A program made the position numbers and the translations under genes. The notes below the pieces were generated by a model that was not told where the DNA came from, made no database searches, and worked only from the letters and a program-made list of their open reading frames with translations. This document shows positions 20,101-28,200 of a stretch of 28,200 nucleotides of DNA, one piece after another. Positions within the stretch are counted from its first letter, which is position 1; the number at the start of each line of letters is the position of its first letter. Source of the stretch: a virus; the IMG/VR virus record IMGVR_UViG_3300017756_000075, positions 1 to 28,200 of that record; one strand, written 5' to 3'.

Positions 20101-20355
20101 TGCATTATAAACATCAATAAAATTTTGAGTATCATCAATATCAGCTGCTAATTGAGATTCACTGACAGTATTAGCATTCTCACTTAATTTTAAGTAAGAA
20201 TCAATATTATTGATTAAATCTAAAGTTCCACCTTGAAAATCTAAACCATTATAATACTGCTGGAAAAATTCATCAATTAGAGGAAATTCATCTTTAATAT
20301 ATGATGCTAATTGACTCCCAACTAGGTGGCGAATTTTTACGGTATTTTTCGACAT
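8176..20355 (-). CDS. 7: Giant gp7-like baseplate wedge protein with YHYH domain
   Basis: This 4059-residue protein occupies the gp7 position between gp6 and gp8. Residues 195-213 (YSTRGTESSFKILFKALYN) match a segment recalled from the C-terminal third of T4 gp7 (YSTKGIEASYKFLFKVLYN), and residues about 17-35 resemble the T4 segment shortly before it. T4 gp7 is 1032 residues, so this is nearly four times longer and carries the conserved block at its N-terminus. Around residues 1269-1355 lies a YHYH-type domain (GWAYDGHPIYGPYGY, then FPNGTYAYFAT). Many Gly-x-Gly-Tyr units and many 'HxLxTGDxVxY' units are scattered through it. About residues 3560-3660 hold a 'LLIFINDVIQVPG' type segment seen in phage fibre proteins. 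The C-terminus (GRYSWGKL) resembles cyanophage structural proteins. The ATG lies 22 bp after gp6, preceded by a weak AAGAGAA. No frameshift is seen. Confidence 0.88.
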   Translation of the reverse strand: MSKNTVKIRHLVGSQLASYIKDEFPLIDEFFQQYYNGLDFQGGTLDLINNIDSYLKLSENANTVSESQLAADIDDTQNFIDVYNADGFPDQLGIVQIDDEIIVYQTRVGNRLLFCQRGFTGVSSYDKSNNSEELTFSETSADSHKFQTSVKNLSVLFLQEFLRRVKGQLLPGLQTEKLTDNLNQAQFIRQSRDLYSTRGTESSFKILFKALYNDEIELIRPQDNLISPSNAQYRLTRDLIVEAQEGNPENLLNATLFQDPTGSINMAYAPISNVEKVYVGVLTDSYYKVSLDSSFSGFDGASNLLYGDFTVHAKTSAIDSVAVGQTYIDVDSTIGFEDSGSLLVKFEDGTSGIVTYTDKINTQFLGISTSSITRIIQDKTIIDQNVFAYGYDPETQEDDGIKVKIRSVLRDLQKPTDAYYQLENTKIKIKSLGKIPSGLKSNNWFFNTAQYYDIESLTLEDANNDIYKLTTKDDHVFRIGDLIELTDRSNLKSPNDLVVTDVFSAKQLLIRGSGVGDTTRQVKASKRITKFKSDLYSSVSTYNANINNVYVKDDKVLVSTNSLPSYLDSKVNPRNQRFFVSGTYRLGDETIKLTDGIDHNFFTGDIIYYTPEKTTTEITQPDGNVIISEQIGSFLFIEGRYIVQRIDENNIKIAKSASNLYAGKFESITPPGGADSTVITSNIVERADNRGKDLSATRLYREISTPVTDSFTPKNNLKYSGIFINGVEILNYKSNDFIYHGRLNSIEVTSGGLNYDVVNPPIVHIEDSVGSGATGICDVSGSLKEIRIIDSGFDYVEIPKIKITGGNGVGAKAEVNMIPVHTANSFNASGISTTTTGIGDVGIGTTVSIIGFTTHHRFKNGERVVYKTFGKKAIGGLSTDATYYAGVLSPYQIKLHNNLSDAVAGVGTITLGSFGDGTHQLRCLNAKSAIGSISIVDPGTGYQNKQRTCAPAGINTALNLINISNHGYKTGEIINYTVQGTSIGGLSAETDYYVTEIDNDSFRLSSIGIGSTAKDFYFNTNQYQTLSSIGVGTHNFNYQPISVEVLGNVGLASTGGRDFKAVVQPVFRGQITSIKLTSTGVGYGVSDVINFKRDPRITLRSGTGAQLETVISANGQISDVVINRPGQEYNSPPELIVNGVGQGAKLTPRLSNGTITGVEIISAGVGYGSSTTTIQIVPAGKDAQFTTEIQTWTINNVKKNQNNLNSDDAFLMDSSNATDDLQVSYAYAPRSLRKIIYSVDSGGSTLYGKKDLKLVNGEETTNTDHSGILGWAYDGHPIYGPYGYENATGGNIVQLKSGYVLDLKDNRPPLSAFPQEFFIEDFTWVESTSDSSLDRNNGRFCVTPDFPNGTYAYFATIDTTASSDGLFKGFKRPIFPYLIGESFNSKPNEFNYDNNSNQKNYDVRQHGWRRNTYPYSMNKKNSGYDYLQKPFDFVDSDSTIKSAEKGYITSVGIQSGGINYQVNDRIIFEKESGTEFFSASRVSKVRGKNVTLVSAAKTSISNIEFYPVGNDSFIGIASASHNLKDDDIVNLSGISTTSARLAGNYQVGVTTNTLTVSKFIGTVNSTGIVTFIDVSTRSFEYPQIQENDILTIGTETVKVLNIDKESSRLRVLRSQNGVVGVSHTITTAIKEDPRRFTINVGYKTTYSGRRNREYYFNPAESLGISSSTATGAGSTIVFVNPGSGSTSKFILAQHLYLPNHGLITGDEVSYQLNGGSPIGVQTEATAGVGIITDGTKVFVANLGSDFIGLSSVRVGLGTIGTFVGIADTTSHCGLLYFVGVGTGVNHSLQTNHKNVVKGQIDRNEVTVSVAGTHGLSRNETVFVDVDPIITKTQQVRYNTHNRKTVIGELSFTLAGISSDSSLNISDHGLITGQKVIHSATAPATGLLNNQEYYAYVVDTNNVKLCESTYQTKQPNPKFVDISNDSSGSLLPVNPPLKFYKDTSVRFDVSDSSLSYVQNTTVLPAFTFKFYTDSNYVREYVTEGKDSDFAVRQFGTLGTSNARIDLDITGNTPKVLYYRLEPLRVAGNLTVNLEAVISEEVKDHNQIEVFESLYTGQHIVSGVTTNTFKYSLETFPESVSYASTSSSALSYTTNSPSVYGPIAEIDSNDIRKGYSKLPGISSITSSLGRNAVLKPSSNTIGKVTRTDLKNIGFNYPSDPTLAPEAQLPQILEVSTFLKFNRIGITSFGQGYTVPPALIVLDGTTKKKISDIDIRYNLGDTNVSILKNSQSLNNANPIILPLDNPNGIRVSNLVYDASDKTVTATMTEEYSENFPLSIGDKVLIEHASVGVGTTAKGFNSADYDYETFEIIGVHESLGGNVGVVTYRFDKLGDTDTMGKLDTINSSITLTPEKYFPIFDFDLVSNNFQVGNTVISGDSEGVISNWDEVNLTLIVESADNFIVGSVIEELVTGSKATITNNFDFDTEYNLDYYSIVDNGWQTSIGFLNKFDQKIPDNDYYQNFSYSIKSKVPFDDWNDVVSTLLHTTGFKKFGDLQVESTLVGEERDSLDIQPVDATTIEIDMISVGDLECVNNFDFATENFLQGDIEFSDEISFKTRLITDFSESVSNRVLSIDDISGLFNSNRRSTPFEVVSRLSLVDGQAVKFLCLVKDTIFTSERQMSLVTVVNSRVNGQSMISQYGDVDTVLDLGSYDYGIEGGEGVLQFFPTKFKLNRYALSVFSYSLDRLGLNTESIGLGTENIGVSTASSFPGSLVSVASSNILISGTTATNLITLGGIGTESSNTRAAKLLVSIENSNDKTEFEEISIIHNDSSVEILEYNQLTNHTLDSQSGSTGLGTIGASLSGKDIVVSYTPIAGVTTTFVNVLAVGFSSEGYLGVGTDAYAFTKLSAEGVDIASSGSPTATNVGRYGNPTDTDVDAAYGIAVVSDKTNNIHEMFEFTIVDDDTNISLTEFANVDTSGAPSPVGLGTLGATRSGNTTLINFTPNPSINVHVKTFINKMSIERFDNVDQFDKDLNCALLKSNFDTYTGTEITVRRDFPLTHKNDTIFTKEFNASDSNVVNLTNNTLFLPNHFFVSGQELIYDSTLGIKTDFISIASTDGFVGVGTTTTLPRNVFCIKVSEDKVKLATSAANALKRNPVSVAFTGVSAGVDHTLTAKDANSKVIVSIDNMIQSPIVATSVTTGLSTSATPGKDIIFFTGITSFFAGDYVKLGTEDDDEIVKIISIGIGTTNAVKVRRNWFGTGLGAHAKDTLVTKIEGNYNIIDNTINFAEAPYGNIPIGSVTDPPSFRDWTGITTSSTFFGRSFMRSGPPGSTVETYAKNHIYDDISQGFDGLTREFILTSDKQNLTGITTSTLILVNGIFQGLGENSNYTVSETTGITSISFTGTASSVSYDVNNANIPVGGVLLSVGSTTGFGYQPLVAAGATVTISAGGTVSAISIGNSGSGYRSGIQTTVNVAVASSSTGTPILEFIGTAAISGGHIVSIAVTNPGTGYTSTNPPEVIIDQPLSYENIPLVYASNSIGVGTGGKVDIVVGQGSSIIEFNISNTGFGYKVGQTLTIGTSGTVGIPTDPTKTLSDFEIKVERVDGDSFNAWSVGEFQFLDEFSSLFNGQRVVFPIKSEGEFLSIVAAKGSNINIQDNLLIFINDVIQVPGESYEFLGGSSIRFNEAPKAGDSVKILLYKGTGEIDVNDVDVTETVKVGDTLQFKSGNFEQNQNKRSVSTIISASSVNTNVYPGPGLAKNEKAERPITWCRQRNDVLINGKVIDKSRGLYEPNIFPTAYIIKSVGVGSTTIYVDNVRPAFNPINESQLSVAFQNKVSIFNYNVPVGAAATANVSAAGTITSIALSNGGVGYSTTPDVTIGNPVGLGSTLRATAVASLTADVVTGVTITAPGTGYTFTNPPVVLIGPPAGPETENNTITTYSGDFGVITGISTTSVGIASTAIVFDLLIEANSPLRDNTGVTVQTTTSGIATGDYFIVYESNVGSGVTALDESGNTIGVGNSFLDNIYRVADVSIANTSSIGIGTTNVARVTVSIAHYNGFTAAGLAISSFYGRYSWGKLLFSERTGFKSYDAITSNGVVGIKTGPYIIRQTAYKSIGFVT

Positions 20356-20377
20356 TTGATTCTCTTACAAAAATTTA

Positions 20378-22312
20378 TTAATATGGGTTATTATTAACAT
20401 TGACATAGCTTGATGAACTTCTATATGTTGAACCTGAGGGATCAGAACCAGAAGAAATGTCATCAATAATCATTTGAACATTGGAACTATCTAATTGTAA
20501 ATAAAGATCCTGTAAACCAATTACATCGTTTGAATGTGGAACTGCAAATATTTCCATAATTTGTAGTCCATCTTTGTTTTTACCGGAGGTGATGTTGATT
20601 GGATTTAAAGTTATACGTCCTGTCATGTAATCAATTGCACCAACATTTCTTCGTTTTACCACAGGAGTTGTTGATCCTGGTGCTTGCAAAGAATATAATG
20701 ATATTATTCCAGTTTTTGTATCATTGGGTTCGTCAAAAAGATAAACATCATCTGTTATATCTAGCACTCTAAAAGGACTCGATTTTATGTTGTAACCATT
20801 TAAAGATTGAACATGCATATGATTACCAAAATCGATTGCATACTCTGCAAACTGATTAGTCGCAAGTCTCAAATCTCTTCTCATTTGTATAGAAGTTAAA
20901 TTAGAGGTAATTGACTGATGACTCTGATCAATAATTCCTAAAAACTTACTATATTTGAATCTCGTACCATATTTATTCAACTCAGAGGAATCTGCATATG
21001 CTTGAATATTGTTTTGAATTGTCGTGGAAACAGCAGCAACATCTGTGATTGCTCTTGAGTTGTAATAGACTTTACTATCAGTAACAATATGGAGATATTT
21101 TAAATCTAGTATTTCAGGTACAATACCAGTTACAGAATATTTTCTTAATTGTCTTTTTATATTTTCTTTAATTCCTTGAGAGATGAAATCTCCGTTTCTG
21201 GGTTTGATACTAATAAAAACTTTTCCAAATCTAGGGGGAACTAACTCTTCCCCTCCAAAAACTGATATTGACTCTGCTTCTGGGTAAATTTTATTTGGAA
21301 TAAGAATTTCATAGTCATTTGCAGTTATTGCACGATCTTGAGTTCCATATACCTGGGGTGCATACTTTTTAATTGAAGCAACACTCTCAATAGCAGCACC
21401 ACCTGTAGAGGGTGTTTGAGATGAAATAAGGGAGATTCCACTAGTGACTGTATTTTCTATGGAATCTTGCAAATAAACTAATCTACCGCTAAAATTAAAA
21501 TCACTAATCCTATTGGAATTAGCACCATCACAAACTAAGTAAGAAATCTCTACAACGTTTCCATCTTCAAGTGCTCTCCCAAATACACCATCACCAAAAA
21601 TAACCTCATACCTTTCATCCTCTATTTCTTGTAAAAAGAAGACTGTAGATGATCCATTTATGACATCATTAACTTTTGAATCAATTAAACTATTTGTTAA
21701 ATCATATTTTAGTTTTATTGTTGAAGTATTTGACGGTTTTACCACGACCAATATTGTATCGGTATCAATTCCAGGATTATTCAGTGTAAACCGTTGATTT
21801 GGATTTTGTGAAGAATATGTATAACTTTGAGTTATTTTTGTTCCTTCAATAACTTCTAAATTTTCAAATATCGCTCTTCTATCAAATACAGAGACTGTTG
21901 TATCCTCTAAAACATTAAAAACATATGACTGTCCGCCAAATTGATTTGAAGTTGCAGCTACTGGTCCTGCTTTTAATGTAACAGATGGTGGTGATGTTGA
22001 CAGTTCATCGAGGTCAACAAAGAAGTCAACAACACACCTAGATGCTTTCCTTGATTTTGGGGTGTATCCAATATTTCTTGCCAGTGCAACAACATTCTCT
22101 CTTAAGGTTGCACTATCAATGAATACCTCATTTGCAACCATGTTTGCATTATATGAGTTGATATAAGTGTTATAAGCAAGCAGATCAATAATGCTTGATA
22201 GGTTTGACCCCTCAAAGTCGTAATCCGTAAAATCGGTATTTGTTCTAAGAACTTCTCTTAGTGTGCTTTTAATCTGGTCAAAGTCCAGAGTGCTGAAGTT
22301 TAGGAGTGGCAT
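20378..22312 (-). CDS. 6: Baseplate wedge subunit gp6 (baseplate J-like)
   Basis: This 644-residue protein is close in length to T4 gp6 (660 residues), the wedge protein that forms the continuous ring of the inner baseplate. The N-terminus (LLNFSTLDFDQIKSTLREVL, then SNLSSIIDLLAYNTYINSYN and a NEVFIDSATLRENVVALARN segment) is typical of gp6/baseplate J-like proteins of T4-type phages. Around residues 300-337 there is a characteristic baseplate-J stretch, TGGAAIESVASIKKYAP followed by RAITANDYEILI. The ATG directly abuts the gp25 TAA with no spacer. An AAGG in the last gp25 codons serves as Shine-Dalgarno, so the two genes are almost certainly translationally coupled. A 22-bp gap separates it from gp7. 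Confidence 0.95.
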   Translation of the reverse strand: MPLLNFSTLDFDQIKSTLREVLRTNTDFTDYDFEGSNLSSIIDLLAYNTYINSYNANMVANEVFIDSATLRENVVALARNIGYTPKSRKASRCVVDFFVDLDELSTSPPSVTLKAGPVAATSNQFGGQSYVFNVLEDTTVSVFDRRAIFENLEVIEGTKITQSYTYSSQNPNQRFTLNNPGIDTDTILVVVKPSNTSTIKLKYDLTNSLIDSKVNDVINGSSTVFFLQEIEDERYEVIFGDGVFGRALEDGNVVEISYLVCDGANSNRISDFNFSGRLVYLQDSIENTVTSGISLISSQTPSTGGAAIESVASIKKYAPQVYGTQDRAITANDYEILIPNKIYPEAESISVFGGEELVPPRFGKVFISIKPRNGDFISQGIKENIKRQLRKYSVTGIVPEILDLKYLHIVTDSKVYYNSRAITDVAAVSTTIQNNIQAYADSSELNKYGTRFKYSKFLGIIDQSHQSITSNLTSIQMRRDLRLATNQFAEYAIDFGNHMHVQSLNGYNIKSSPFRVLDITDDVYLFDEPNDTKTGIISLYSLQAPGSTTPVVKRRNVGAIDYMTGRITLNPINITSGKNKDGLQIMEIFAVPHSNDVIGLQDLYLQLDSSNVQMIIDDISSGSDPSGSTYRSSSSYVNVNNNPY

Positions 22313-22714
22313 TTACCTTGTTGGTTGCAAAACGAATTCTAGTTGTTGCTCTGAGATATCCGCACCAATAATTTGGTATGTAATGACAATATCATATTGA
22401 TTGCCATCAAAATCTGGGTTCACTTGGACAGATTTTAGATCTACTCTTGGTTCAAATCTTCTAATTGAATTTTCAATTTCATCACGGATTGTAAGTGAAG
22501 TTATTTCATCCATGTTCTCAAAAAGCATTTGAGAAACTCTTGATCCGAATGTTGGTTGAAAAAACTTTTCTCCAGGTGTTGTAAACACAATATTACGAAC
22601 TGAGCGAGAAATCGCAGTAGCATTTTTTAATGCAATCAAGTCATTATTCAAAGGATTAACCTTAAATGACATGCTTACATCTTTAAAACCGCGACTAATT
22701 CGCTCTAAAGGCAT
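22313..22714 (-). CDS. 25: Baseplate wedge subunit gp25 (GPW/gp25 family)
   Basis: This 133-residue protein has the length and signature of the gp25/GPW family, small lysozyme-fold-like proteins that join the wedge to the first ring of the tail sheath. Family hallmarks are GEKFFQPTFGSRVSQMLFE in the middle and the RFEPRV motif that follows, where the 'EPR' triad lies at about residues 91-93. It is the first gene of the late baseplate operon: a late promoter octamer lies 29-36 bases upstream, and gp6 starts at the very next base after its stop. There is no strong Shine-Dalgarno before the ATG. Gene order gp25-gp6-gp7-gp8 fits marine T4-like phages, whereas in T4 itself gene 25 is separate from 6-7-8. 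Confidence 0.96.
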   Translation of the reverse strand: MPLERISRGFKDVSMSFKVNPLNNDLIALKNATAISRSVRNIVFTTPGEKFFQPTFGSRVSQMLFENMDEITSLTIRDEIENSIRRFEPRVDLKSVQVNPDFDGNQYDIVITYQIIGADISEQQLEFVLQPTR

Positions 22715-22742
22715 GGACCAACGTTGTATTAGAATTATATTT

Positions 22743-22750
22743 TATTTATG
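22743..22750 (-). promoter_or_regulatory. Late promoter for the baseplate operon
   Basis: The minus strand reads CATAAATA, matching the T4-type late promoter octamer (TATAAATA) at seven of eight positions. Late promoters of this type are used by RNA polymerase carrying the phage sigma factor gp55 with the gp33 and sliding-clamp coactivators. It lies in the only real gap (22715-22762) before gp25. A start 5-7 bases downstream would give a leader of about 23 bases. Position and match together make this the best late promoter candidate in the window. Confidence 0.65.
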
Positions 22751-22762
22751 TCACATTTCTAA

Positions 22763-22942
22763 CTAAAATTCATTAAGATTTACTTGCTTAAGAGTCATAA
22801 TTTCTTCATTTTCATCAAAAATTTCAGTTTCTTTCAAAGAATCCGTCTTTTTTGGTGTTTGATCGTCATTTGCGATCTCACGGAGCATCTTTTGATGTTG
22901 ATGATTCGCTAAATTGTCTAAAAAATCGTGATTTGTGGTCAT
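22763..22942 (-). CDS. Small acidic protein of unknown function
   Basis: This 59-residue protein begins MTTNHDFLDNLANHQHQKML and ends NLNEF. I do not recognise a family. It is hydrophilic and charged, likely helical, with no membrane segment. The start is set by context: its ATG overlaps the stop of the upstream 224-residue gene as ATGA, and GAGGA lies five bases before it, a good Shine-Dalgarno. A longer in-frame version starting at 22990 exists but would lie inside the upstream gene, so I reject it. It is the last gene before the late baseplate promoter. Confidence 0.75.
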   Translation of the reverse strand: MTTNHDFLDNLANHQHQKMLREIANDDQTPKKTDSLKETEIFDENEEIMTLKQVNLNEF

Positions 22943-23613
22943 TTTTCCTCTTTTTCGGGTAAATTTTCGCGTTCTTTGGCAGTTTTCCAAAAATATTCAT
23001 CCTCACGTCCCATTCCAAGGCGTTCATAACCGTTTTCAACACTATAATACTGTGTAGAGACCTTAAAATCGGGCATTTTAGGGTCAACAGGTGTTAAACT
23101 ATTGTCAAAAATACGCATTCTATTATTTGGGTACAGTGCATACTGTCCATTATCTAGTTCAATCAAGTTTGATGACTTATGTTCAGCAGGATTCTCACTT
23201 GTTGCATAATCAACGACATCAGGGTCTTGGTGATAATTGTCCAGGGTACACACGTAGGTGCCCTTCTGAGTGCCGAAATCGCGTGTGTATAGTTCATAGT
23301 CCATAGACCCAATAAATTGCTTCTGAACGGCAACTACGCCATAGTCCATGCAGTTCCAAAACTGTAAGTTAGGTAGGTCCATATCAGGTTCTGGTGTCTT
23401 TGGCTCCGAGACGAACGCGCTGATTGGCAGTTTATCATACATTGCAGCATATTCAGGTAAATACGTCTCAAAATAAAAAGCGCGTCCAGGAATCGACTTT
23501 GCCGAAACCCAAACGCCCTTTACAAATTCACCGTGACCACTTTGATGGTCAGTTAAGTATTCTTTACGTACCCATACCTCAACAGAGGGAAGGTTGCATA
23601 TAAGTGCAGCCAT
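22939..23613 (-). CDS. Conserved phage protein of unknown function
   Basis: This 224-residue protein has no function I can assign. Characteristic stretches are VEVWVRKEYLTDHQSGHGEF, KGVWVSAKSIPGRAFYFETY and LPEYAAMYDKLPISAFV. These resemble a protein I recall from T4-like cyanophages, though I cannot confirm that here. It has no signal peptide or membrane segment. The C-terminal 25 residues are highly charged (KTAKERENLPEKEEK). The stop overlaps the start of the next gene by four bases. The whole 25-bp gap from the preceding gene is an AT-rich inverted repeat that reaches the first base of its start codon, and no Shine-Dalgarno is visible. It belongs to the operon that starts at the glycosyltransferase. 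Confidence 0.85.
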   Translation of the reverse strand: MAALICNLPSVEVWVRKEYLTDHQSGHGEFVKGVWVSAKSIPGRAFYFETYLPEYAAMYDKLPISAFVSEPKTPEPDMDLPNLQFWNCMDYGVVAVQKQFIGSMDYELYTRDFGTQKGTYVCTLDNYHQDPDVVDYATSENPAEHKSSNLIELDNGQYALYPNNRMRIFDNSLTPVDPKMPDFKVSTQYYSVENGYERLGMGREDEYFWKTAKERENLPEKEEK

Positions 23614-23637
23614 AGTAAAATTAATATATCTTTACTA
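23613..23637. repeat. Inverted repeat covering a start region
   Basis: TAGTAAA (23613-23619) and TTTACTA (23631-23637) form a perfect 7-bp inverted repeat around an 11-base AT-only-but-one loop. It fills the gap between the 43-residue gene (stop at 23639) and the 224-residue gene (ATG at 23613-23611), ending on the first base of that ATG. It could form a weak hairpin controlling initiation. Confidence 0.5.
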
Positions 23638-23638
23638 T

Positions 23639-23770
23639 CTAGCGACCTTGACCTTTATAACGTTTTTTCTTTCCATTCCGAGAGGTTGCCGAGAGAAGCG
23701 TGCGTTTTCCACTACCCTGACGAGTTTTCTTGGGCTTGCCCTTAATATAGCTGCCACCTTTCATGATCAT
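23639..23770 (-). CDS. Small, very basic protein
   Basis: This 43-residue protein begins MIMKGGSYIKGKPKKTRQGS and ends KKKRYKGQGR. It is extremely rich in Lys, Arg, Gly and Ser, with no acidic residue and no membrane segment, so nucleic-acid binding or packaging with DNA is a reasonable but unproven guess. The ATG overlaps the stop of the preceding gene as ATGA, and GGAGG lies ten bases upstream. A second in-frame ATG at 23764 is also possible. I recall short basic proteins of this kind in cyanomyovirus genomes but know of no function. Confidence 0.75.
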   Translation of the reverse strand: MIMKGGSYIKGKPKKTRQGSGKRTLLSATSRNGKKKRYKGQGR

Positions 23771-23943
23771 AACCGAGTTTCCTCCAGTGTAATTAAATTA
23801 ACATCAAGTTCTTTACCCTCTGAAGCACTTTCATAATAGTCCTCAGAGTATTTCTGTAAAAGATCTGCACACTCCTCAGGGGAAAGGTCTGTGTGAATCC
23901 TCTCCCCCTTGTAGAGTACATTAAATAATACGAGTCTTTTCAT
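23767..23943 (-). CDS. Small acidic protein of unknown function
   Basis: This 58-residue protein begins MKRLVLFNVLYKGERIHTDL and continues SPEECADLLQKYSEDYYESA. It is acidic and probably helical, with no family I can name. It starts 20 bases inside the end of the glycosyltransferase gene in another frame, right after AGGAC, and its stop overlaps the start of the next gene as ATGA. The 'SPEEC..LL..YSEDYYE' pattern resembles small proteins that cyanophages carry in their early gene banks. The tight overlaps on both sides are the main evidence that it is real. Confidence 0.75.
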   Translation of the reverse strand: MKRLVLFNVLYKGERIHTDLSPEECADLLQKYSEDYYESASEGKELDVNLITLEETRL

Positions 23944-24688
23944 GTCCTACACGAATGCGAGGGTCACACCAGATATCGAAACCTGCTTCTTTTGCATCAA
24001 GACAGAATGAGACATCCTCACCACACATATCTTGTACATTGCCAGATTCAAAGACTTGCATCTTCGGAGCAAACCAAGGATATTCTAGGTTCTCAAAGAC
24101 GCCATTCTTAATCATCACCCAACCGAAACCAGTGTAATCTACCGTGAATGGTTTCTTACGTTTTGACATCGTTTCAGTAGTCTCGTGATTCATCACTCCA
24201 CCATTCTTACGGAAGTCATCTTCTTCCAACCAGTGTGCTACTGAGGTAGTATGTCCATCTTCAGTAGCATACCAACCAGCAGTAATCTCCTTCTCTTCAC
24301 CATCTGCATTTACTGCAAGATCACATAGTTGCCAAAACTTAGTGGTATCAAAAACAATATCACTATCAATCCACAATTGGTAATCATACTGCAACTTACC
24401 GTCCCATGGGATCTGCTTAGGTCCACGGAGTACGTTAGCACCCAAGCACTTGCAACGTGCAAAGTTTACCATTGAAGAGTAATCCTGACTGATCTGAATA
24501 CTCATACCGTTCTGAACCATGTCGAAACACAGTTGAACAAAATTCTTTAAAAATGTGAAAGAACACCCACGACCTGGAAGACAAAATACAATTGCCTTAC
24601 CTCGCATTCTTTCTTTGATTGCTTCAATGTCCCACTCTTCTTTCTTCTTAGTGGGCGCATTTGCTTTTACAGTAAATCCTTTAGCCAT
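23921..24688 (-). CDS. Probable GT-A fold glycosyltransferase
   Basis: This 255-residue protein shows the hallmarks of family 2-like, GT-A fold glycosyltransferases. A DSD at residues 108-110, within YDYQLWIDSDIVF, fits the metal- and nucleotide-sugar-binding DxD motif. The C-terminus, GEDVSFCLDAKEAGF from residue 223 and then DIWCDPRIRVGHE, fits the usual acceptor-side 'ED..FC..A..AGF.IW..P' block. There is no membrane segment, so it is probably cytoplasmic. Donor and acceptor cannot be read from sequence; phage DNA, a virion protein or a host surface sugar are all possible. It is the first gene after a sigma-70-like promoter and is followed by four coupled small genes. GAAGG lies about 13 bases before the ATG, further away than usual. 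Confidence 0.75.
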   Translation of the reverse strand: MAKGFTVKANAPTKKKEEWDIEAIKERMRGKAIVFCLPGRGCSFTFLKNFVQLCFDMVQNGMSIQISQDYSSMVNFARCKCLGANVLRGPKQIPWDGKLQYDYQLWIDSDIVFDTTKFWQLCDLAVNADGEEKEITAGWYATEDGHTTSVAHWLEEDDFRKNGGVMNHETTETMSKRKKPFTVDYTGFGWVMIKNGVFENLEYPWFAPKMQVFESGNVQDMCGEDVSFCLDAKEAGFDIWCDPRIRVGHEKTRII

Positions 24689-24711
24689 AGTTTGAATTAA
24701 CCTTCAGATCA

Positions 24712-24740
24712 ATTATATCGTAGTATGTATGCAAAGTCAA
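24712..24740 (-). promoter_or_regulatory. Sigma-70 promoter for the glycosyltransferase operon
   Basis: On the minus strand TTGACT (24740-24735) and TATAAT (24717-24712) are separated by exactly 17 bases, eleven of twelve positions matching the bacterial consensus. The start would fall near 24705, giving a leader of about 17 bases before the glycosyltransferase ATG. The -35 hexamer overlaps the stop codon of the preceding 68-residue gene. Host polymerase would read this directly, so early expression is expected. Confidence 0.85.
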
Positions 24741-24943
24741 TAAGATGGGTCCTCAGTGTTATATGGAGATTTCTCAACCTCCTCATATGACAAATCCTCA
24801 ATGGAATAATCAGTCTGCATTAGACCAACTATACCCTTGAGGGTGTTCCAGGTTACACCGAATTCTTCCTCTTTAACACTATGAAATAAACATTTATTCT
24901 TTGCGTATATGTGAAAAATTTTTTCCTGCTCCTTTGGAGTCAT
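24737..24943 (-). CDS. Small protein of unknown function
   Basis: This 68-residue protein begins MTPKEQEKIFHIYAKNKCLF and has an acidic tail (SIEDLSYEEVEKSPYNTEDP). No family is recognised. It is soluble and probably helical at the N-terminus. AGGA lies a few bases before the ATG within a run of adenines, a credible ribosome binding site. It has a leader of about 160 bases if transcribed from the promoter at 25112-25140. Its stop codon lies within the -35 element of the next promoter, so it belongs to a separate upstream unit that reads through into the glycosyltransferase operon. Confidence 0.7.
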   Translation of the reverse strand: MTPKEQEKIFHIYAKNKCLFHSVKEEEFGVTWNTLKGIVGLMQTDYSIEDLSYEEVEKSPYNTEDPSY

Positions 24944-25160
24944 TTTTTTCCTGGGGAATTTTTTTTATCTATTTTGAAATGAAAATCCGAATAATATATG
25001 TCTCTCGAATTGTCACCTCTGTAGGTTAGGGTAGTTAGCGTTTTTTATATCACGCCGCCCGCAACGCAACAACAACGCCCCCATAAACACTGTCATTTCA
25101 CTGATACTCCCAGTCTACCATATACGGGGCAGAGTGTCAACAACTGCCCCTCACTAAGTA
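24944..25160. other. Intergenic leader region
   Basis: No convincing gene lies between the 91-residue and 68-residue genes. The region contains a promoter-like element and nested inverted repeats at its right end, then a GC-rich island near 25046-25084 that contrasts with the AT-rich surroundings, then an AT-rich tract before the next ATG. A 27-codon ORF on the minus strand (from 25099) has no ribosome binding site and is not called. The long leader suggests a structured 5' untranslated region. Confidence 0.5.
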
Positions 25161-25164
25161 TCAG
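25101..25164. repeat. Nested inverted repeats around a promoter and a stop codon
   Basis: An inner 7-bp perfect repeat, GGGGCAG (25126-25132) and CTGCCCC (25144-25150), has an 11-base loop. An outer 8-bp perfect repeat, CTGATACT (25101-25108) and AGTATCAG (25157-25164), encloses it. The right outer arm covers the TGA of the 91-residue gene. No T tract follows on either strand, so it is not a standard rho-independent terminator. Confidence 0.6.
25112..25140 (-). promoter_or_regulatory. Sigma-70-like promoter TTGACA-17-TAGACT
   Basis: On the minus strand TTGACA (25140-25135) is a perfect -35 and TAGACT (25117-25112) a 4/6 -10, with 17 bases between. The -35 lies in the loop of the inner inverted repeat and the spacer covers one of its arms. 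It would drive the 68-residue gene with a leader of about 160 bases. The same pair of hexamers with the same spacing occurs on the plus strand at 25799-25827. Confidence 0.6.
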
Positions 25165-25436
25165 ACACCGAAGTAACAATCAGAATTGATCTCAACGGTG
25201 TTCACTTTAGGGTCTCTGTAGTTAACACCGTCAGGGGTCGATAAGTCATTGAGATCACACCCTTCGAGTGCATCTACAAATTCTTCGTAGTTACCTGCGG
25301 CACCTGCTAGTTGATACAAACCCTCATCATTACCAATCCAGAGTGCAACATTCCAGGTCTCATAATTCGTCCAACCGTTATACGTGGTATCAGTGAGATT
25401 TGTCTGAAAGGTTGCGGTCATAGAGGTTCGAGTCAT
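25161..25436 (-). CDS. Small 'GWTNYETWNVALWI' protein
   Basis: This 91-residue protein contains NGWTNYETWNVALWIGNDEG at about residues 20-39. A 'WTNYETW.V.LW..N' motif is typical of a small domain common in phage and plasmid accessory proteins; I believe it corresponds to a DUF (possibly DUF7249) with no known function. The rest is acidic. No signal peptide or membrane segment is present. The ATG lies just six bases after the -10 of the upstream promoter repeat, so the mRNA would be leaderless or nearly so from this start. An alternative ATG at 25421 (residue 6) keeps the domain intact and would have a short leader, but has no Shine-Dalgarno. Confidence 0.85.
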   Translation of the reverse strand: MTRTSMTATFQTNLTDTTYNGWTNYETWNVALWIGNDEGLYQLAGAAGNYEEFVDALEGCDLNDLSTPDGVNYRDPKVNTVEINSDCYFGV

Positions 25437-25474
25437 GCTTACACTATAGGGACACTTTAGAGGTGAGTAACATT
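25437..25474 (-). promoter_or_regulatory. Promoter repeat, copy 1
   Basis: This is one of four near-identical intergenic elements. On the minus strand it holds TTACTC (25470-25465), a conserved 16-base spacer with CCTCTAAAGTGTC, and TATAGT (25448-25443) as a -10. It lies wholly between the stop of the 58-residue gene and the start of the 91-residue gene. Confidence 0.75.
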
Positions 25475-25488
25475 AATATCCACACACT

Positions 25489-25665
25489 TTACCACCGCGA
25501 CGGTGCACTTAGATCCTCCACGTAACTATCGATAACCTTCTCTGATCCTTCCAATTCAAATAACTCCTCCCAGTTAATATTGTGAGGATTAAAGTCTTCT
25601 AAGGTCTCCAATTCCAACGTAATACGATAACGCTGCTTCTGTGCTTGTTGATACGTGACTGACAT
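25489..25665 (-). CDS. Small protein of unknown function
   Basis: This 58-residue protein begins MSVTYQQAQKQRYRITLELE and ends VEDLSAPSRW. It is acidic in its second half and probably helical; no family is recognised. Similar 'R..ITLELE...DF.P..I.WE.LF.LE..E' patterns occur in small cyanophage proteins I remember without a function. It is the first gene after the consensus sigma-70 promoter at 25695-25723, with a leader of about 23 bases. No good Shine-Dalgarno is present; GACCTCC precedes the ATG instead. The next gene, 52 bases downstream, has its own promoter repeat. Confidence 0.7.
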   Translation of the reverse strand: MSVTYQQAQKQRYRITLELETLEDFNPHNINWEELFELEGSEKVIDSYVEDLSAPSRW

Positions 25666-25694
25666 GATTGGAGGTCCGTAAGTGTTACTGTACT

Positions 25695-25723
25695 ATTATA
25701 GAATCTAGGAGAAATATTGTCAA
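25695..25723 (-). promoter_or_regulatory. Perfect-consensus sigma-70 promoter
   Basis: On the minus strand TTGACA (25723-25718) and TATAAT (25700-25695) match the bacterial consensus at all twelve positions with the ideal 17-base spacer. Transcription would begin near 25688 and read the 58-residue gene and those beyond. Such a promoter is expected to be used by the host enzyme immediately after infection. Confidence 0.9.
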
Positions 25724-25735
25724 TCTGCCTGCCCA

Positions 25736-25743
25736 TATTTATA
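25736..25743 (-). promoter_or_regulatory. Late promoter octamer
   Basis: The minus strand reads TATAAATA, an exact match to the T4 late promoter, 13 bases upstream of the -35 of the consensus sigma-70 promoter. It points at the 58-residue gene. The two together could allow both early and late transcription of the same genes. Confidence 0.5.
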
Positions 25744-25798
25744 AGGATTACTGATAGTTTTTGACTGTCAATCCCTCAAAAAACTTATGAGCGGGTCG

Positions 25799-25827
25799 TT
25801 GACATTTTGCGGCGTTCGTGTTAGACT
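25799..25827 (+). promoter_or_regulatory. Plus-strand sigma-70-like promoter TTGACA-17-TAGACT
   Basis: TTGACA (25799-25804) and TAGACT (25822-25827) are separated by 17 bases on the plus strand. Transcription would start near 25834 and run against all known genes. No ATG occurs on the plus strand for about 270 bases downstream, so a product would be untranslated RNA or antisense RNA. Confidence 0.5.
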
Positions 25828-25907
25828 GCTCGCTAAGATCACAAGACCTAGACACATTTATCAGAACGTAATCACGGTGACCTGAGCACATTTAATCACA
25901 CACAAAT

Positions 25908-25938
25908 ATACTCCACAGATACTCCACAGATACTACAG
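25908..25938. repeat. Short tandem repeat (11-bp unit)
   Basis: ATACTCCACAG occurs twice in direct succession (25908-25918, 25919-25929), followed by a shortened copy ATACTACAG (25930-25938). The repeat spans three helical turns, consistent with a protein-binding array, but no binding protein can be named. Confidence 0.75.
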
Positions 25939-25978
25939 ATATACCACTAAGTTACTCTTACCATAAAAAACGAAAACA

Positions 25979-25986
25979 TATTTATA
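25979..25986 (-). promoter_or_regulatory. Late promoter octamer
   Basis: The minus strand reads TATAAATA, an exact match to the T4 late promoter. It lies in AT-rich DNA about 320 bases upstream of the nearest gene downstream, the 58-residue gene. The AT content raises the chance of a fortuitous match. Confidence 0.4.
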
Positions 25987-25997
25987 ATATCATTTTT

Positions 25998-26028
25998 AAT
26001 TGATTTTTTAATACTTTTTGTATCAATT
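25998..26028. repeat. AT-rich nested inverted repeat
   Basis: AATTG (25998-26002) pairs with CAATT (26024-26028), and inside it ATAC (26011-26014) pairs with GTAT (26020-26023) around a TTTTT loop, leaving an 8-base A/T bulge on one side. It is within the most AT-rich part of the window. Function is unknown. Confidence 0.35.
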
Positions 26029-26069
26029 TATACTAATTAGTGTTAGTAACCGTTCTTTGCTATCTCTAT

Positions 26070-26096
26070 AAAAAAGACCCCTAAACTAGGAGTCTT
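26070..26096 (-). terminator. Rho-independent terminator
   Basis: On the minus strand AAGAC (26096-26092) pairs with GTCTT (26078-26074), followed after one mismatch by CCTA pairing with TAGG, around a 3-base loop, and the stem runs straight into a T tract of six. It ends the bank of small genes on the right. The TAG of the 43-residue membrane peptide is inside the hairpin. Confidence 0.85.
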
Positions 26097-26217
26097 GGTA
26101 TAACCTTTCGATGGTGTTTTTTCTCTCTTGCATCATATCTACTAGGTTGGAGTCAAGTAGATTTATCAGAAGATTTGCACCTATGATAATAACAAGAGAA
26201 GAGAGAATAATACGCAT
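26086..26217 (-). CDS. Small membrane peptide
   Basis: This 43-residue peptide begins MRIILSSLVIIIGANLLINL. Residues 3-20 form one hydrophobic membrane segment with a single preceding Arg, followed by a charged tail (MMQERKNTIERLYQDS), so a single-pass inner-membrane protein or small secreted peptide is likely. No family is recognised. It starts 20 bases after the 107-residue gene and is preceded by TAACACAAACCAA, the same 13 bases that precede the start of that gene. The stop lies in the terminator loop region, which makes it the last gene of its transcript. Confidence 0.65.
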   Translation of the reverse strand: MRIILSSLVIIIGANLLINLLDSNLVDMMQERKNTIERLYQDS

Positions 26218-26237
26218 TGGTTTGTGTTAACAAAGGA

Positions 26238-26561
26238 TCAGGCAAAGATGTAACCTTGCTCCCAATCTCGGGTAACTTTGTTGTCATTAATAAACCATTG
26301 ATAATCCTTCTGAAAGACACCATCAGTCAGTGAATCACAGAACCGATTGATAAGCGCATTAAGACGACTTTTGGTTGTAACTGATTGCCAACCACCATCA
26401 AAGATTTGAAGATAGTTGTCACCAACCTCAGCGATCTTATTGCCATGAAGACGAACAACAGAAACACCATTCTCTTCATTGTAGTGAACAGAAGTATTAG
26501 CGGATTGCCAATCTTTGTTGTTAGCAATGGCGTCATTCATTTGCTTTTCGATCTTACGCAT
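26238..26561 (-). CDS. Conserved small phage protein ('LHGN..A / GGWQS.TTKSRLNAL')
   Basis: This 107-residue protein has the pattern 'DWQSANTSV', 'VVRLHGNKIAEV', then DGGWQSVTTKSRLNALINRF. I recall this combination from many cyanophage and marine phage small proteins of unknown function, where it forms one compact domain. It is soluble, with no signal peptide. Its promoter is repeat copy 2, whose -10 ends 42 bases before the ATG. The leader carries TAACACAAACCAA just ahead of the start instead of a Shine-Dalgarno. The ATG is the first in frame and starts the known-looking MRKIEKQM. Confidence 0.88.
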   Translation of the reverse strand: MRKIEKQMNDAIANNKDWQSANTSVHYNEENGVSVVRLHGNKIAEVGDNYLQIFDGGWQSVTTKSRLNALINRFCDSLTDGVFQKDYQWFINDNKVTRDWEQGYIFA

Positions 26562-26600
26562 GTTTGGTTTGTGTTAGTTTGGTGTGAGGTGGGGAGCGCC

Positions 26601-26641
26601 TACACTATAAGGACACTTTACTGGTGAGTAACATTTACATC
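26601..26641 (-). promoter_or_regulatory. Promoter repeat, copy 2
   Basis: On the minus strand TTACTC (26631-26626), a 16-base spacer and TATAGT (26609-26604) repeat the architecture of the other copies. It is the most diverged copy (CCAGTAAAGTGTC in the spacer). Its upstream edge overlaps the TGA of the preceding gene, and it drives the 107-residue gene. Confidence 0.72.
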
Positions 26642-26879
26642 AAACAATCTGAAAGGTATTAAGATCATTGCGATTGTCGCAACTTTCCCAGGTATTATAG
26701 AAACTATCCCATGCAATCTTATTATCAACAAAGGAGACAATATTCATCATTTCACATACCCAATCATATGCCATATCTACATCGGCATTTGTATCATTTA
26801 CAAAGGCAACCATTTGTCCCATGATATCATCCCAATTTTCAATAATATCTGGGGTGAGAGAGAAAGAGTTGTAAGACAT
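26640..26879 (-). CDS. Small acidic protein of unknown function
   Basis: The protein from this start is 79 residues, beginning MSYNSFSLTPDIIENWDDIM and rich in Asp, Asn and Trp. No family is recognised; it looks like a soluble helical domain. An in-frame ATG at 26912, three bases after the previous stop, would add 11 residues. I prefer 26879 because ACAAACAAATG there resembles the leader before two other starts in this bank, but the choice is uncertain and neither has a Shine-Dalgarno. The TGA forms the edge of promoter repeat copy 2. Confidence 0.7.
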   Translation of the reverse strand: MSYNSFSLTPDIIENWDDIMGQMVAFVNDTNADVDMAYDWVCEMMNIVSFVDNKIAWDSFYNTWESCDNRNDLNTFQIV

Positions 26880-26915
26880 TTGTTTGTAAAGATGTTGTTT
26901 AATAAGTGACATAAA

Positions 26916-27188
26916 TCACCCCACACATGCCATTGGACGATATACATTAGCAGGACACTTTTCGGTGTGATAGTCAGTAACCTCAGCACCTCCAGCAATA
27001 CGCTCTGCCCACTCATTTCGTGCGGTAAGTGCTGTTACTGTGGAATAAGATTTTTGTCCATTAGCACAAAAGGTGACACACTTGACAAAACGTTTGACAA
27101 CGACTTTCATGCCTTTGATATCATCAGCCTCAGCAATGAATGCCTCAGGGAAGAAATCAACAATACAGACGGAATTTGAGAGTTGCAT
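26916..27188 (-). CDS. Small protein of unknown function
   Basis: This 90-residue protein begins MQLSNSVCIVDFFPEAFIAE. It contains KGMKVVVKRFVKCVTFCANG and ARNEWAERIAGG, and four cysteines. No family is recognised, and there is no signal peptide or membrane segment. It is the first gene after promoter repeat copy 3 and is followed three bases later by the next possible start. The leader is about 25 bases and pyrimidine-rich, lacking a Shine-Dalgarno. Placement directly behind a promoter repeat is the best evidence that it is real. Confidence 0.75.
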   Translation of the reverse strand: MQLSNSVCIVDFFPEAFIAEADDIKGMKVVVKRFVKCVTFCANGQKSYSTVTALTARNEWAERIAGGAEVTDYHTEKCPANVYRPMACVG

Positions 27189-27210
27189 GTTAGAAAGAAA
27201 GAATTGAACG

Positions 27211-27257
27211 GTGCTTACACTATAGAGACACTTTAGAGGTGAGTAACATTTACATCA
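27211..27257 (-). promoter_or_regulatory. Promoter repeat, copy 3
   Basis: On the minus strand TTACTC (27246-27241), a 16-base spacer and TATAGT (27224-27219) are followed by GTAAGCAC. Its upstream edge overlaps the TGA of the 93-residue gene. It is almost identical to copy 4 and drives the 90-residue gene. Confidence 0.78.
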
Positions 27258-27536
27258 GACTAACTCGTGTTGATATGCCATCCATTGCTCTTCTACGACT
27301 TCATCCACACTCTCTTGAATCACCTGATAGATGTAATCAATGTTGCCTACATCATTAAAAATACGTCTAACCAACTCAGGATCTTCTATGTTGTTATCAT
27401 AATCAATCTCACCATTTTCATCCTTCATATGACAATCTTCCTTGGTATAAATCCATGCGGCACATTCTGCATCTTCTCCTAATTCCTTGATCATACTTGA
27501 TACACGGTCTTGAAGTTGCTTGAGAGTGTAATTCAT
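27255..27536 (-). CDS. Conserved small phage protein
   Basis: This 93-residue protein begins MNYTLKQLQDRVSSMIKELG and continues EDAECAAWIYTKEDCHMKDE. I recall a cyanophage small-protein family with this pattern: 'LKQLQDRV..MI...G..A..AAWI.TKED', a short Asp/Glu-rich middle, then 'VGN.DYIY..I...VDE'. The function is unknown. It is strongly acidic, soluble and probably helical at both ends. It starts four bases after the 54-residue gene, so it is expressed from promoter repeat copy 4. Its stop marks the edge of repeat copy 3. Confidence 0.85.
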   Translation of the reverse strand: MNYTLKQLQDRVSSMIKELGEDAECAAWIYTKEDCHMKDENGEIDYDNNIEDPELVRRIFNDVGNIDYIYQVIQESVDEVVEEQWMAYQHELV

Positions 27537-27540
27537 TTAA

Positions 27541-27705
27541 TCAACCTCCGAACATGTCGTCGAATAACTGTTGAGAACTGACTTTCAATTCCTCACGATG
27601 TTCTTGTGCCCAACGTTGCTCATCTTCCATACGTTTGATAGCAAGTTCACGAGGCAATCCTTCGTGCATAATAACATTTCCGTTTGGTAGTTTGTGCATG
27701 AACAT
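27541..27705 (-). CDS. Small protein of unknown function
   Basis: This 54-residue protein begins MFMHKLPNGNVIMHEGLPRE and is charged and helical in its second half (RMEDEQRWAQEHREELKVSS). No family is recognised. The frame is open further up to 27786, but that part covers promoter repeat copy 4 and would overlap the preceding gene, so the start is placed downstream of the -10. The ATG at 27699 (MHKL) is an equally good alternative. No clear Shine-Dalgarno is present. The next gene follows after four bases, so the two form one operon. Confidence 0.72.
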   Translation of the reverse strand: MFMHKLPNGNVIMHEGLPRELAIKRMEDEQRWAQEHREELKVSSQQLFDDMFGG

Positions 27706-27720
27706 AGAGAAGAAAAGAAT

Positions 27721-27763
27721 GGTGCTTACACTATAGAGACACTTTAGAGGTGAGTAACATTTA
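27721..27763 (-). promoter_or_regulatory. Promoter repeat, copy 4
   Basis: On the minus strand TTACTC (27757-27752), a 16-base spacer and TATAGT (27735-27730) are followed by GTAAGCACC. Its upstream edge contains the TAA of the 48-residue gene. It drives the 54- and 93-residue genes. Confidence 0.78.
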
Positions 27764-27907
27764 CTCTTTGAATGTAGGGTTGACACCTATCACCGTTGCC
27801 TTAGGATTACGTGCCAGTGCTGTTTCCTTTGCATCTTCATTATTGACGGCATGAACAGTTTCGGTGAAAACTTTACCGCCAACATACAACTTAACTTCGT
27901 ATTTCAT
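27761..27907 (-). CDS. Small conserved-looking protein
   Basis: This 48-residue protein begins MKYEVKLYVGGKVFTETVHA and ends VNPTFKE. The pattern 'Y.V.LYV.G..F.E.V.A.N..DAK..A...NP.A.V...NP' suggests a small beta-alpha fold like many short phage proteins; I cannot name a function. The frame and length fit well, and its TAA is the edge of promoter repeat copy 4. The ATG follows the preceding stop by two bases with no Shine-Dalgarno, indicating translational coupling. It is too short to be found with a 60-residue cut-off but has good coding character. Confidence 0.75.
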   Translation of the reverse strand: MKYEVKLYVGGKVFTETVHAVNNEDAKETALARNPKATVIGVNPTFKE

Positions 27908-27909
27908 GA

Positions 27910-28077
27910 TCAAAAAATGTGTGTGAAACGTTTGTGAGTTGCCTTGGCCATTCTACCTTCATTCAACATGTTATCGCACACGTTGATAAAGATTTGAAAC
28001 TTTTCCTCTCTTGTGAGAGTATCTGCCCGGTCGCAATTCTTCATCACTTCGAGCATCATTTTCTTGGATGTGATCAT
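27910..28077 (-). CDS. Small protein of unknown function
   Basis: This 55-residue protein begins MITSKKMMLEVMKNCDRADT and continues REEKFQIFINVCDNMLNEGR, ending ATHKRFTHIF. The C-terminal pattern 'F.NVC..ML..GR...A.HKR.T..F' resembles small cyanophage proteins I remember, function unknown. An in-frame stop 24 bases upstream makes this ATG the first possible one. A different frame is also open across much of it (27971-28135), which weakens confidence slightly. It is coupled to the next gene two bases downstream. Confidence 0.7.
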   Translation of the reverse strand: MITSKKMMLEVMKNCDRADTLTREEKFQIFINVCDNMLNEGRMAKATHKRFTHIF

Positions 28078-28131
28078 AATGAATGACAGTAAGTTTGTCT
28101 AGTTGTTGTTGTAAATCAGGGAAGAAATCGT

Positions 28132-28200
28132 TCACAGGTACAAATATCCTCCTGCCCAATCTGCATTTTCCAGCAACCATTCACGTTGCTCAATCAATCG
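28132..28200 (-). CDS. C-terminal end of an unidentified gene (partial)
   Basis: The frame is open from the right edge to a TGA at 28132 and gives the end RLIEQREWLLENADWAGGYLYL reading through the edge. Only 22 residues are visible, too few to name a family. It runs in the same direction as its neighbours and ends 54 bases before the next ATG, in line with the compact spacing here. The coding look (charged helix with aromatic end) is the only support. Confidence 0.45.
   Translation of the reverse strand, partial: RLIEQREWLLENADWAGGYLYL

Follow-up and report, generated by a model that had tools for sequence, protein, structure and literature searches.

The 28.2-kb window analysed here (the whole stretch, positions 1 to 28,200 of IMG/VR record IMGVR_UViG_3300017756_000075) is a fragment of a T4-like cyanophage of the family Kyanoviridae, and it carries four minus-strand copies of a short intergenic element. 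The copies lie amid small genes upstream of purM-gp25-gp6-gp7, in the counterpart of the variable block that other cyanomyoviruses have between gp25 and the tail-fibre genes. Within the phage collection, Synechococcus phage SynMITS9220M01 (MT408532) is the most closely related, with 81% identity at 59% coverage for window positions 20001-28200. The element is real, widespread, strongly patterned and regulatory, and its 5' end carries a 9-bp box that differs from phage to phage.

The repeated element and its distribution

An earlier note on this DNA described four minus-strand copies of TTACTC, a 16-base spacer and TATAGT, and all four are present (Table 1). A 34-nt string recurs at 25437, 27213 and 27724 with at most one mismatch, against 0 matches in 100 shuffles. 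The copy at 26598 differs at 5 of 37 positions, and a repeat search places all four copies in one 55-nt family. The conserved "spacer" is borne out, as is the promoter-like placement ahead of genes: every copy precedes the next start, copy 1 directly adjoining it, and the proteins encoded downstream are indeed unrelated, belonging to separate PHROGs, none of known function. Overlap with the preceding stop codon, claimed for three copies, is strictly true of copy 4 only (stop at 27761-27763); the distance from the end of the copy to the upstream stop codon is 2 nt for copies 2 and 3 and 12 nt for copy 1.

The element occurs in T4-like viruses of marine Synechococcus, where it is repeated between small genes of the early region. 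Scanning IMG/VR with an exact 20-mer gave a first family set of 70 stretches, and an iterated matrix identified 392 copies in these loci and in isolate phages, including S-B05 and SynMITS9220M01. De-novo motif search in phage S-SM2 recovered 11 copies of AAGGGGGGTCGCC-TAAAGCGTCCCTATAGTGT, in which the 3' half is the same and the 5' half different, and an IMG/VR scan that used only the 3' half returned at least 120 stretches. The element occurs far beyond the window: about 220 loci together contain hundreds of copies. In the pooled set of all loci the 3' module is matched 1058 times when up to three mismatches are allowed. For the loci retrieved with the 3' pattern, simulated sequence yields nothing equivalent to the matches with 0-2 mismatches, and chance accounts for about half of those with three. 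Placement upstream of genes, on the coding strand and between one stop codon and the start that follows, is the rule: for 883 of the 1054 mapped copies an open reading frame (ORF) begins no more than 120 nt away, whereas the opposite strand carries 16 copies and ORF interiors hold 42.

Apart from a few strays, the box 9-mer of nearly complete genomes is limited to a single block (10 of 10 in SynMITS9220M01, 12 of 12 in S-SM2 and 10 of 10 in genome G2). Its reverse complement is absent from these three genomes, and a guide or antisense RNA was rejected on this ground; the strays in S-B05 and genome G1 are two true elements plus chance matches. The two true elements of S-B05 (MK799832) lie beyond the main block at 156039 and 156967 (+) and precede relocated orthologs of a gene encoding ...THIEHP... 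and of a helicase, both of which kept the cassette after the move.

Anatomy of the element

The conserved core spans about 40 nt, from the TAA/TTA that precedes TTACTC through to GTAAGC. It is modular, consisting of a common 3' module, AAAGTGTCC-CTATAGT-RTRAGCA, and the 5' box, which in the window is TTACTCACC. In the frequency profile TTACTCACC and AAA are each near 99%, with variable bases in between, and the positions upstream are A/T-rich. The distance from box to AAASYGT is 12 nt in all 361 of 361 copies. A –10 element placed exactly at TATAGT was considered and dropped in favour of the hexamer TAGTRT at core positions 30-35, two bases further downstream: the first-position T of TATAGT occurs in only about 27% of all copies, and TAGTRT fits the pattern of conservation expected at –12, –11 and –7 (T-12 0.99, A-11 0.92, T-7 0.90). 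Leaders after the element are A/C-rich and nearly without Shine–Dalgarno sites. Folding energies of the element equal those of shuffles (z from –0.9 to +1.0), and it contains no stem-loop. An RNA hairpin with CAC/GTG pairing, picked out by eye in the S-SM2 version, was also discarded, as its outer pairs vary among copies and its energies equal those of shuffles.

The box follows the genome

Box identity goes with the genome and not with the gene: the box is uniform within a genome and different between genomes. At least 27 modal 9-mers occupy this position, among them TTACTCACC, GGGGGGTCG, GGGGGGACG, ACTGGGCCC, TTAGTAACC, TCTGGGGCC and ACTGAGCCA. Of 2473 pairs of different genes on one locus, 94.3% have the same box cluster. 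For orthologs with 20-89% protein identity in different loci the figure is 23-41%, compared to 30.6% for random pairs, and it reaches 66% only for orthologs above 90% identity. Among loci that were fetched without reference to the box, copies in one locus agree exactly in the 9-mer at a rate of 70.6%, compared to 5.6% after shuffling (maximum 7.7% in 500 shuffles). A minority box is present in a few loci, as recent imports would predict.

Box type is also discordant with the phylogeny of the core genes. The core of SynMITS9220M01 is nearer to that of S-SM2 (69%) than to that of S-B05 (59%), yet SynMITS9220M01 has its box in common with S-B05; likewise, the G1 core is nearer to genome G3 than to phages with the same box. 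Three pairs of loci (L131/L146, L022/L149 and L048/L164) have near-identical flanking genes with only the box swapped.

The earlier note offered recent duplication of a gene-plus-promoter cassette as one explanation for the conserved repeat. This is not supported as the whole explanation, since different genomes have the 3' module in common but each has its private box. Nor does gene conversion of the whole element explain the uniform boxes, since homogenisation does not extend to the adjacent 3' module (modal 9-mer fraction 0.53, compared to 0.88 for the box).

A proposed box-dependent promoter

TTACTC had been read as a sigma-70 –35 element. We reject this assignment because no box variant resembles TTGACA better than random sequence does: the box types score 2.0-3.0 of 6 against TTGACA, where random sequence scores 2.98. 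A sigma-70 promoter scan of the window listed none of the four copies, but it did list a perfect TTGACA-17-TATAAT site (Table 1), in contrast to the element, so this phage has canonical promoters as well. Canonical TTGACA-17-TATAAT sites (at least 11 of 12 matching) are enriched 2.6-3.6 times in three complete relatives. Boxes unlike TTGACA together with enriched canonical sites suggest two promoter classes, one canonical and read by the host and one box-dependent.

We weigh most heavily the proposal that the element is an activator-dependent promoter cassette, in which a genome-private box, recognised by a putative factor, takes the place of the –35 element; our confidence in it is evenly balanced. 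Orientation and placement, the fixed spacing, the –10-like hexamer, the A/T-rich positions upstream and the A/C-rich leaders speak for a promoter; the private box, homogenised where the 3' module is not, its discordance with core phylogeny and folding no better than that of shuffles fit the same proposal. The –10-like hexamer would be read by host RNA polymerase, and the box and AAAGTG, at the usual –35 place, would be bound by a trans-acting factor that is either encoded by the phage or brought in. Once the canonical sigma-70 early promoters had fired, this binding would turn on a regulon of 10-15 small genes for host takeover. Box and factor would co-evolve, so that every copy in a genome changes together, and the common 3' module and its placement would make the cassette a recombination joint at which gene modules are exchanged. 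The fuller version, a genome-private promoter code in which a new kind of fast-diversifying factor reads the 9-bp box and each phage lineage thereby addresses 10-15 host-takeover genes of its own, we regard as tentative, somewhat short of an even chance.

Some observations weigh against the activator-dependent cassette. An ATG lies at core position 34 in 149 copies and is in frame with the gene in 134 of them; in 56 of 331 copies (~17%) it is the only start codon, ahead of the expected transcript start. Those 56 genes would need read-through transcripts, or the transcript begins earlier than assumed, and this is the main reason why our confidence is held at its present level. In addition, no candidate for the factor emerged from box-correlated identity, discordant phylogeny, families restricted to type-A genomes or the Pfam and PHROG annotation of the early region. 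No protein family is present in the compared type-A genomes and missing from Syn9 and Bellamy, and there is no convincing DNA-binding regulator among the early-region proteins by Pfam and PHROGs.

The suggestion of a phage-specific regulator, possibly MotA-like, stands in its first part, such a regulator being likelier than ordinary sigma-70 recognition, and fails in its second. The Pfam profiles PF09158 and PF09010 have no match in SynMITS9220M01, S-B05, S-SM2, G001 or G003, with the T4 control at E values of 7e-71 and 2e-43; MotA and AsiA were accordingly rejected as the regulator. A T7-type RNA polymerase was considered owing to the resemblance to CTCAC..TAAAG, and PF00940 was unmatched in four phages, with every control silent as well.

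Control of early and middle transcription in T4-like cyanophages, which are without MotA and AsiA, was called unclear in a 2010 review (PMC2984593). A sequence-defined, coherent, genome-wide regulon with a private box offers a direct handle: the box could serve to fish out the factor, and phages that differ in their box amount to natural swap experiments. If the private code is true, it would replace MotA/AsiA in cyanophages, with at least 27 specificities seen, and would insulate the regulon of each phage from co-infecting relatives. It would be a clear example from nature of a regulatory code whose copies all diversify in concert, and would offer orthogonal phage promoters for cyanobacterial work.

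Alternative explanations

The element could instead be an RNA-level leader motif, acting in translation, mRNA processing or protein binding and transcribed from upstream promoters. The in-frame bias of the position-34 ATG, its role as sole start in 56 copies and the A/C-rich leaders that nearly lack Shine–Dalgarno sites are in keeping with this. However, the bias may arise simply because upstream starts that are out of frame are selected against on read-through RNA, the predicted structure is no better than that of shuffles, an Rfam search of the window stretch gave no match, and the antisense box is absent from the three genomes named above. We consider an RNA-level role unlikely, though the best placed of the alternatives.

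A stoperator-like operator or roadblock, at which a cognate phage repressor or roadblock protein on the box would damp transcription across gene junctions while the 3' module serves mainly as promoter or translation start, is quite unlikely. The private box and strict orientation of the element recall the stoperators of mycobacteriophages, which are also asymmetric, in one orientation, intergenic and genome-private (PMC6550527). But the element-bearing cyanophages are not known as temperate and the box is locked at a fixed spacing to the –10-like hexamer and start codon. Presence and phylogenetic discordance gave no candidate for a cognate repressor.

A plain host sigma-70 early promoter, duplicated and kept uniform by gene conversion with no special factor, is improbable. 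It would account for the –10-like hexamer and the A/T-rich upstream positions, and recombination between dispersed repeats is possible. Against this, the boxes have no –35 character, canonical promoters are present separately, and conversion should also homogenise the adjoining 3' module, whereas only the box is uniform.

That the element is mainly a recombination joint, a PeSL-like mobile regulatory cassette whose box has little transcriptional role, is very improbable: upstream neighbours of orthologs are less conserved at element junctions (e.g. 13% compared to 29% elsewhere at 50-60% identity), a gene-shuffling signal that is suggestive only, as it relies on simple ORF calls and non-independent pairs, and S-B05 has two relocated genes still with the element, but exchange in the common module should mix boxes within a genome, where 94% of pairs match, and the element has no stem-loop.

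Comparison with known systems

The activator-dependent cassette proposed here resembles the MotA/AsiA middle promoters of T4 in having an activator box at the –35 place followed by a –10 element. Box and –10-like hexamer are 13-15 nt apart, compared to 11-13 in T4, and if transcription is assumed to start near core position 42 the box centre falls near –31, the T4 MotA box lying near –30 (PMC1524935). Unlike the T4 MotA box, TGCTTTA, the boxes TTACTCACC, GGGGGGTCG, TCTGGGGCC and others are unrelated in sequence and vary from phage to phage; TGCTTA is found in window copies 1, 3 and 4 on the opposite strand only. The MotA C-domain and AsiA are also absent from these phages, unlike in T4.

The PeSL mobile regulatory cassettes of T4-like phages (Arbiol 2010 and Comeau 2014, as cited in PMC4503421) are, in the account given there, similarly promoter-like, repeated between genes of hyperplastic regions and tied to gene shuffling. 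To judge from that account, the present element differs in having no stem-loop (terminator) and in having a genome-private box; the lone same-strand terminator-like hairpin lies elsewhere. Stoperators of cluster A mycobacteriophages likewise comprise many asymmetric sites in one orientation, with a phage-specific consensus that co-varies with the binding protein (PMC6550527), but the sites described here bear a –10-like hexamer and a start codon, in phages not known as temperate. Halovirus HF2 has repeated intergenic sequences with reporter-proven promoters (PMC8707807); it is an archaeal virus, and the abstract of that report does not mention a genome-private box. The present repeats may have been described earlier in the Syn9-transcriptome or PeSL literature.

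Neighbouring genes and other features of the window

Coordinates are collected in Table 1. The PHROG match of the gene after copy 1 fits a real start at the second Met (25421). A boxless match to the 3' module with three mismatches, a decayed copy or chance, lies at 26944-26961 (–) within the gene after copy 3.

Table 1 Element copies, downstream genes and other features of the window
Feature	Coordinates	Strand	Remark
Copy 1, 40-nt core	25437-25476	–	Box TTACTCACC at 25462-25470; adjoins ORF 25161-25436
Copy 2, diverged (CACCAGTAAAGTGTCCTTATAGTGTAGGC)	26598-26637	–	Box at 26623-26631; upstream of gene 26238-26561
Copy 3	27213-27252	–	Box at 27238-27246; upstream of gene 26916-27188
Copy 4	27724-27763	–	Box at 27749-27757; upstream of gene 27541-27705
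Gene after copy 1, phrog_871 (no known function)	25161-25436	–	PHROG match begins at residue 7
Gene after copy 2, phrog_554 (no known function)	26238-26561	–	PHROG search
Gene after copy 3, phrog_500 (no known function)	26916-27188	–	PHROG search
Gene after copy 4, phrog_2575 (no known function)	27541-27705	–	Scanned as 27541-27699
Perfect sigma-70 promoter TTGACA-17-TATAAT, ahead of gene 25489-25665	25695-25723	–	Sigma-70 promoter scan
Terminator-like hairpin with T tail, after gene 26238-26561	26074-26096	–	Scan found 2, 1.7 expected

Other repeats in cyanophages that lack the element

Cyanophages without the present element bear other repeats in the same region. In ACG-2014f (locus L083, 1-22700) there are 25 copies of a repeat of ~80 bp, CAGTTGnnnAAGTGGCACA followed by TTGGCA-17-TATACT, with a clear –35 element (TTGGCA), a 17-bp spacer, an extended –10 element TGCTATACT and an upstream CAGTTG..AAGTGGCACA site. 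P-RSM4 has the same-region repeat TGTGACAGTTnnnnTAGTGTCACA, and its early-region repeat (L085, 3400-20900) contains an inverted repeat, TGTGACAGTT-N4-TAGTGTCACA, that resembles the binding site of a dimer. The versions in S-RIM2, S-MbCM6 and Syn9 have a terminal start region of the ATACTATAAGAGTCAAAGG or TATTCTATAAGAGTCAAAGG type, and S-PM2 (L090, 21535-24610) carries 11 copies of TATAATGACTTCAGTTCAAACGAAAC immediately 5' of start codons. AAGTG(T/G)C is seemingly common to these repeats and the present element, which may thus be kin. In Bellamy (L081, e.g. near 35001 on the minus strand), a repeat with the look of a PeSL couples a terminator-like hairpin with a AGTGGCACA site and the –10-like sequence TATAGT.
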